Of a stretch of DNA of 64,000 nt, positions 30,857 to 31,625 are shown piece after piece (the first letter of the stretch is position 1; every line of letters starts with the position of its first letter). Both the position numbers and the translations under genes were made by a program. Source of the stretch: Gemmatimonadota bacterium (GTDB taxonomy: Bacteria > JAAXHH01); the NCBI GenBank assembly GCA_026702745.1, contig JAPPBT010000065.1:186001-250000 (forward strand), in the 5' to 3' direction. Below the pieces are notes generated by a model. It was not told the origin of the DNA and searched no databases. It worked only from the letters and a program-made list of their open reading frames with translations.

Positions 30857-30890
30857 AAAAAAACGAGGCGGTCCTTGTCGAACCGCCCCG
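30857..30890 (-). terminator. Rho-independent terminator of the selenoprotein unit
   Basis: On the minus strand a 9-bp stem with one mismatch (30864-30872 with 30882-30890) is followed by seven Ts (30857-30863). It ends the transcript of the gene at 30955-31536. Confidence 0.8.
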
Positions 30891-30954
30891 TCCAATTGAT
30901 CTTCGTCGTACTGTAGTTGAACCCTGAATTCCAGGGTGCCCCGCTACCGGGAGA

Positions 30955-31536
30955 TCAGTCCACGGTCTCCATCGTCGTTGCCACCGATTTCAAGAGCCTG
31001 TCTTTCATATTCCACACCGTGTAACCGGTGTCGATCAGCCCGGTAGGCGCGTCCTTCCACTCGGCATCCTTGCCGTAGAGGAAATAGGCGTCCCAGACCA
31101 TGGGGTCCTTGTGTTCCAGTTCCCCCGACTTCTTGTACCAGAATCCCAGTGCGTTCGCGGGGTCCCACATCTGGCTGACCCGTTTGTCGCTGAACACCTG
31201 CTCCGCCGCGATCTTGGCCGTATTGACCGCGTCGTTTCGGAGTATACGCTGCCAGACCACGTAGACCCGGAGGTCATCGGAGGGAAACTTATTCAATATC
31301 TCTTGCTGCACCGCCCCGGCGCCGCTTATGCAGTGGCCTCAGGTAGGCGAGAACATCACGACGAGGCGGACTTTTCCGGTATCGCCGTTGAACGCCTTCT
31401 TGAAATCCACGAGGCTGAGCGGTTCCGGGTTAAAGCTGGTGTTGGTGTTGAGTTGAGCGCCGGCCTGCGAAGCCCACGACAGGGCTCCGGCCAGGATCAG
31501 CGCGGTGACCAAGCGAATTCGGTTTGTCATTTGCAT
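30955..31536 (-). CDS. Putative secreted thioredoxin-like selenoprotein (in-frame UGA = Sec66)
   Basis: The 193-codon frame runs from ATG 31536 to 30955 with one internal TGA at 31339-31341. N-terminal signal peptide: RIRLVTALILAGALSWASQA. A strand (VRLVVMFSPT) runs into the UGA, which reads as UGHCISGAGAVQQEIL. The UGA therefore sits at the first Cys position of a redox CxxC motif, as in known Sec-containing thiol oxidoreductases. The second half (VYVVWQRILRNDAVNTA, WDPANALGFWYKKSG) has normal codon use and no plausible start of its own. A hairpin can be drawn 3' of the UGA (31306-31333: CUGCA/UGCAG, G-rich loop). Alternatives are a nonsense mutation or sequencing error. Confidence 0.75.
31306..31333 (-). 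promoter_or_regulatory. Possible bacterial SECIS hairpin
   Basis: Just 3' of the UGA at 31339-31341, the RNA can pair CUGCA (31329-31333) with UGCAG (31306-31310), with inner CC/GG pairs and a loop starting with G about 21 nt after the UGA. That matches the loose bacterial SECIS description. Hand-folded only. Confidence 0.4.
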
Positions 31537-31595
31537 CGATCCATTTTCAGGTGGTGGACTAAAACCCCGGTCGTCCCGGGCCGGTCGGGTTAACT

Positions 31596-31625
31596 ATGAT
31601 ATCGACTATGCGTATAGATTGACAA
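31596..31625 (-). promoter_or_regulatory. Sigma70-like promoter of the selenoprotein gene
   Basis: On the minus strand TTGTCA (31620-31625), an 18-nt spacer and TATCAT (31596-31601), each 5/6 to consensus. It predicts a leader of about 50 nt before ATG 31536. Confidence 0.5.

Follow-up and report, generated by a model that had tools for sequence, protein, structure and literature searches.

The gene at positions 30,955 to 31,536 of the window, the whole stretch of 64,000 nucleotides analysed from a Gemmatimonadota bacterium, can with little doubt be assigned to an exported selenoprotein of thioredoxin fold, with a redox site made of Sec66 and Cys69. It represents one branch of a family here designated SPTUxxC. 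The selenoprotein identity is confirmed as very probable by comparative sequence data, and SPTUxxC is apparently an undescribed thioredoxin-like family occurring in at least three phyla. Judged from the active-site motif and the modelled structure, the favoured role would be that of an exported selenol/thiol oxidoreductase.

Translated with TGA as selenocysteine (U), the product reads MQMTNRIRLVTALILAGALSWASQAGAQLN...VVMFSPT-U-GHCISGAGAVQQEIL...METVD. The features of the gene are collected in Table 1. As proposed by the first-pass annotation of the window, translation yields a single frame of 193 codons broken solely by the TGA at 31339–31341 (codon 66), and this codon occupies the first residue of an SPT-U-GHC redox motif, where four homologues have TGC or TGT at the same column. 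The proposed signal peptide was retained as probable after inspection of the sequence by eye; its hydrophobic core is preserved in the aligned relatives. The promoter TTGTCA-18-TATCAT was recovered at 31596–31625, and the terminator, initially placed at 30857–30890, was found as a hairpin and T tract at 30893–30861. Most congeners display a hairpin and T tract resembling it. The leader also contains a conserved GC-rich hairpin (CCCGGGACGACCGGG) at 31566–31580, between the promoter and the start codon. The statement that the second half of the frame has no start of its own did not hold, as a possible GTG start is present at 31311–31309 (open reading frame of 118 residues). This GTG is not a conserved start, since it reads GCG in the relative L016. 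The chance of encountering an open stretch of 127 codons is about 0.012 at this base composition, so that the openness of the second half is by itself weak evidence. That the frame is more than a chance occurrence follows from the conservation of the TGA in 13 genomes and from purifying selection on both halves. The upstream neighbour is ychF (357 residues, same strand) and the downstream neighbour is a convergent pyruvate dehydrogenase E2 gene. The order ychF, selenoprotein gene, pyruvate dehydrogenase E2 is kept in the eight named relatives (8/8), the records of which are metagenome genomes labelled Candidatus Latescibacterota or Gemmatimonadetes.

Table 1 Features of the predicted selenoprotein gene, in window coordinates
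Feature	Position	Strand	Basis or remark
Selenoprotein coding sequence	30955–31536	minus	193 codons and stop TGA (30957–30955); translated with TGA = U; full frame kept in 13 genomes
Sec codon UGA, codon 66, leading residue of U-G-H-C	31339–31341	minus	TGA shared by the 12 genomes of the genus, G013 and 15 genes from other phyla
Partner cysteine codon, Cys69 of UxxC	31330–31332	minus	Invariant in 26/26 rows of alignment A6
Probable signal peptide, residues 1–27 (MQMTNRIRLVTALILAGALSWASQAGA-/-Q)	31456–31536	minus	Read from sequence: basic n-region, hydrophobic core, AGA-/-Q
Thioredoxin-like domain, residues 41–193	30958–31416	minus	AlphaFold2 on 26-sequence alignment; Foldseek matches
Predicted bacterial SECIS hairpin GC-G-GCGCCG-GGG-CGGUGC-A-GC	31305–31325	minus	Predicted fold, conserved pairing, frozen codons
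Promoter-like site TTGTCA-18-TATCAT	31596–31625	minus	Hexamers and 18-nt spacing identical in 9/9 congeneric sequences aligned
Intrinsic terminator	30861–30893	minus	14-pair stem followed by T tract

The conservation of the gene was examined in a phylum sample of 16 genomes, 12 of which belong to the genus of the window, its own genome included. The gene, with a single in-frame TGA in the identical position, was found in the 12 genomes of the genus and in G013, which belongs to another genus (43% identity to the window protein). The TGA is kept in every intact relative within the taxonomic family, and nowhere in this clade has it been replaced by a sense codon or a different stop. Both halves had been described as clean. 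Indeed, purifying selection acts on each, with dN/dS values of 0.06–0.32 where estimable. Between the window and five congeners, the values were 0.06–0.27 before the TGA, leaving out one comparison without amino-acid change in that part, and 0.10–0.32 after the hairpin, which indicates that the part after the TGA is maintained as protein. The decay expected elsewhere in a pseudogene was not found in the relatives that keep the gene, as the full frame and the TGA persist in 13 genomes. The codons just downstream of the TGA are frozen beyond the need of the protein. At codons +5 to +12, five of the six invariant residues are encoded by a single codon in ten genes, versus 9 of 57 elsewhere (Fisher p = 0.0015), and these codons are identical between the window and G013. 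Among the 16 phylum genomes, the gene is absent from G014 and G015. The gene is dispensable in G001, where all that is left is a remnant of the C-terminal part, with 31 identical residues out of 69; this genome still has selA, tRNA-Sec and pieces of selB. Between ychF and the remnant, G001 contains an inserted, broken frame (L054, G001:C102:1367–2500) that looks RepA-like by eye.

The folding of positions 31300–31341 that had been suggested as a check produced a hairpin core at 31305–31325. The upper stem of 6 bp pairs 31317–31322 with 31308–31313 around a 3-nt GGG loop (31314–31316), with a folding energy of −12.0 kcal/mol; the apical loop is reached 22 nt past the UGA. The hairpin agrees in every respect with the bacterial SECIS model of PMC13188914 (Fig. 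2 legend), which asks for a loop of 3–9 nt with a G in the first two positions, a stem of 4–16 bp, a distance of 16–37 nt from the UGA, and a minimum free energy of at most −7.5. In the tree set, five or six of the six stem positions are paired at the same register in 14 of 20 Sec genes, and four other Sec genes have a second type of hairpin (GCGGGG-GGC-CUCCGC). The hairpin is absent from the Cys homologues (n = 4), where two to four of the six positions are paired. In L016, the residues AV are replaced by VA and the stem is still paired through changes from G-U to G-C and from G-C to G-U. The folding energy after the UGA is not below that of synonymous shuffles (z = −0.08 for the window), and each type I stem by itself has a P of about 0.17–0.21. 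A covariation count over nine sequences agrees with the stem, but the controls were not significant. As the folding energy is ordinary, the case for a SECIS element rests on codon freezing and conservation.

The genome of the window (G000, 96% complete) was searched for selA, selB, selC and selD, as had been recommended, and all were found. The tRNA-Sec (selC; 70.6 bits) has a UCA anticodon and lies 40 nt after selB (349.6 bits joined). The selA gene scored 496 bits, and selD (263 bits) is fused to a pyridine-nucleotide oxidoreductase. The catalytic SelA is without the N-terminal domain of its E. coli counterpart, which counts against the reading of the TGA as selenocysteine. A second TGA-bearing gene in the same genome (L081, G000:C18:33754–34152), of the AhpC/TSA family with the motif YW-U-PLC, was counted in favour of it. 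The draft genome G013 yielded neither tRNA-Sec nor a catalytic selA; its selB stops 18 nt short of a contig edge, a possible reason for the absence of the tRNA.

Two SelA-like proteins are encoded in the genome of the window (L017 and L018, G000:C66:87060–88241 and G000:C79:57347–58714). The catalytic one retains SGDKLLGGPQAG though its N-terminal domain is absent. The other covers the full model, but has AGGGLIGGPPCG and no PLP lysine. Most genomes of the phylum show this combination of match types, and G015 has one full-length SelA. On contig C185 of G013 (L049), the second SelA-like gene is represented by its C-terminal end, which accompanies a HypE-like gene in an apparent bacterial microcompartment sugar locus, with a class II aldolase, an acetate kinase, an aldehyde dehydrogenase and shell proteins as read from the sequence.

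The family was traced further by profile searching, first in 384 genomes and afterwards in the G187 phylum (80 genomes) and in relatives of G340. Outside the phylum of the window, 15 further genes have TGA at the site. The search for homologues with cysteine at position 66, also advised by the first-pass annotation, gave four with TGC or TGT at exactly that column, in other phyla, so that the aligned column totals TGA in 28 genes and a cysteine codon in 4 homologues. G187 carries a pair of paralogues, one with Sec and one with Cys. The taxonomic family of G340 is absent from the list of 80 genomes of the G187 phylum. At least three phyla are thus represented, as G187 and G340 belong to different phyla that are both distinct from that of the window. 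In the tree, the Sec rows are grouped on one side of a branch with weak support (61/82). Three weak Cys matches (L078–L080) look like ordinary thioredoxin or TlpA domains and were excluded from the family. A search of plasmids with tblastn gave a single unconvincing match (E = 0.2), no member was found in viral contigs, and the neighbours of the homologues in other genomes have no common theme. Five proteins (L074, L084, L094, L095 and L096) share a domain of about 110 residues (GxW...DLG...RWxGxFDLP...DYPV), without Pfam match, upstream of the SPTUxxC domain.

The structure of the domain was modelled by AlphaFold2 with 26 sequences (pLDDT 94.9, pTM 0.91). It superseded an earlier model from ten close sequences, which had a pLDDT of 61 and meaningless Foldseek matches. 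The modelled order is helix, strand, long helix starting with the U, strand, helix, strand, helix, two strands and helix. The U is residue 26 of the domain and is followed by the active-site helix (27–41), as in the thioredoxin fold. Foldseek matched the model to CcmG, ResA/TlpA-like proteins, GPX and Sco with E values of 1e-5 to 4e-4 and TM scores of about 0.5–0.65. Alignment and DSSP assignment reveal no conserved cis-proline before the following strand. Strand 110–114 is preceded by W108-D109, a W/Y-D pair in the family, with the Asp in nearly all aligned rows. The site of the thioredoxin cis-proline would thus carry an Asp after Trp or Tyr, as placed by alignment and strand position. The cis-proline was proposed to prevent metal binding, in the passage of PMC2757866 that cites Su et al. 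2007, and peroxiredoxins have an Arg at this position (PMC2757866).

The ribosome would read UGA 66 as selenocysteine, directed by the SECIS hairpin, which starts 13–16 nt past the codon, and by SelB together with tRNA-Sec. Once beyond the cytoplasmic membrane, the protein would attack an oxidised substrate with the selenolate of Sec66, which stands at the N-terminal end of the active-site helix. Cys69 would then resolve the intermediate as a Se-S bond, to be re-reduced by a donor. The two latter steps are deduced from the UxxC site and the fold.

TGA is a stop codon by default, and together with the loss of the gene in G001 this would suit a pseudogene or a truncated product of 65 residues. 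The comparative data refute such a reading in practice, as 13 genomes share the TGA with purifying selection persisting on the downstream half, and its substitution by a sense codon or a different stop never occurs in the clade; we consider a genuine stop highly improbable. A single-base error of sequencing or assembly could be suspected since all sources are metagenome assemblies, but genomes assembled independently, with differing codons around the site, show the same TGA, which makes this explanation exceedingly improbable. Reading of TGA as Trp throughout the genome (code 4) is just as hard to conceive, since the gene itself ends in TGA, the standard code gives complete genes on either side, and homologues have Cys rather than Trp at the corresponding residue. 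No evidence for code 4 was found in the data.

The function of the selenoprotein is more debatable. Selenols are very strong ligands of mercury, and the protein could, in the envelope, mainly bind or relay mercury or similar soft metals instead of performing disulfide chemistry. Three relatives (L084, L096 and L097) are single reading frames composed of MerT (PF02411, the match of L097 being slightly under the cut-off), a MerP-like HMA domain (PF00403) and SPTUxxC, and a fourth (L104) is preceded by a frame bearing a MerC-like domain (PF03203). These fusions suggest that the window protein may deal with soft metals. In the fused branches, this active site probably acts on mercury or some other soft metal, as it is joined to MerT and MerP-like modules. 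The almost invariant Asp at the site of the cis-proline, the proposed barrier to metal binding (PMC2757866 citing Su et al. 2007), goes in the same direction, but its position is deduced from alignment and strand position only. The fusions are in a sister branch (support 90/93), not in that of the window (85/90), and the window gene stands alone between the ychF and pyruvate dehydrogenase genes. A mainly metal-binding role for the window protein is rather unlikely. Somewhat less likely still is a peroxidase of GPX or peroxiredoxin type, in which the Sec would reduce peroxides and Cys69 resolve the intermediate. The best Foldseek matches include structures of GPX and Prx/Bcp, and in the alignment the W-D pair lies near the location of the W-N motif of GPX. 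Nevertheless, TlpA, ResA and CcmG match equally well, the Gln of GPX was not identified, and there is no Pfam match to PF00578, PF08534 or PF00255. The selenol/thiol oxidoreductase remains the favoured role.

Automated pipelines are expected to split or truncate at the UGA genes such as those of this apparently uncatalogued selenoprotein family. The Sec/Cys paralogue pair of G187 lets the value of selenium be compared side by side. The MerT-HMA fusions pose the question whether bacteria use a genetically encoded selenol for mercury. The bond between Se and Hg is familiar from toxicology; a protein dedicated to it, if true, would surprise specialists. A wide-ranging proposal, which we regard as doubtful, is that the SPTUxxC proteins are envelope selenoproteins for soft metals, in which the selenol of a thioredoxin-like domain devoid of cis-proline would capture or relay Hg(II), and which in some phyla would be wired into a MerT-MerP transporter as one polypeptide.

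The window protein gave nothing above threshold with Pfam, NCBIfam 20.0 and PHROGs, and searching the PDB by sequence returned weak matches around the CxxC alone. Because every Pfam and NCBIfam 20.0 model stays under its cut-off on the domain, the family appears to be new, and the novelty claimed at first reading is right as far as these libraries go. Among the entries as listed in the 119-family selenoprotein catalogue of 2026 (PMC13188914), none could be identified with it. Text searches of the literature on the motif retrieved no relevant paper.

The closest comparisons are with other exported or thioredoxin-like proteins. The Rcas_1661 family thioredoxin-like (seleno)lipoprotein (NF041057), listed as DsbG-like with UxxC (PMC13188914), is like the window protein an exported thioredoxin-like UxxC selenoprotein. 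It is the only NCBIfam model touching any relative at E < 0.01, namely the Cys homologue L075 over its full length (E = 1.5e-4), but with 21.4 bits for a cut-off of 190, and the window protein and 26 domain rows are unmatched at E = 0.01. The hypothetical protein GOS_C (NF045500) and the HUIPC thioredoxin-like selenoprotein (NF047660) are likewise uncharacterised thioredoxin-like UxxC selenoproteins; with these models, NF040730 and NF041046, the window protein is unmatched at E up to 10 and the 26 rows at 0.01. The Redoxin family protein (UxxC, HEU0032618.1) was compared by its listed domain PF08534 alone, which does not match the window protein. TlpA, ResA and CcmG are exported, have a CxxC site and provide the best fold matches (CcmG 1kng, E = 1.2e-5; ResA 2f9s), whereas SPTUxxC has about 9–15% identity to them, no Pfam match, a replaced cis-proline position and Sec as the first residue. 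GPX, peroxiredoxins and Sco match the fold at similar E values (poplar GPX5, Bcp1, BsSco), but there is no sequence-family match (the window protein is unmatched by the AhpC/TSA, Redoxin and GPX Pfam models), and SPTUxxC has UxxC instead of the GPX or Prx sites. Finally, the selenocysteine MerT, a putative mercuric transport protein (PF02411, C/SxxU; PMC13188914 Table 1), also associates selenium with mercury transport, and some SPTUxxC relatives bear a MerT module. It has the Sec in MerT itself, whereas the SPTUxxC fusions keep the CC of MerT and have the Sec in the C-terminal thioredoxin-like domain.
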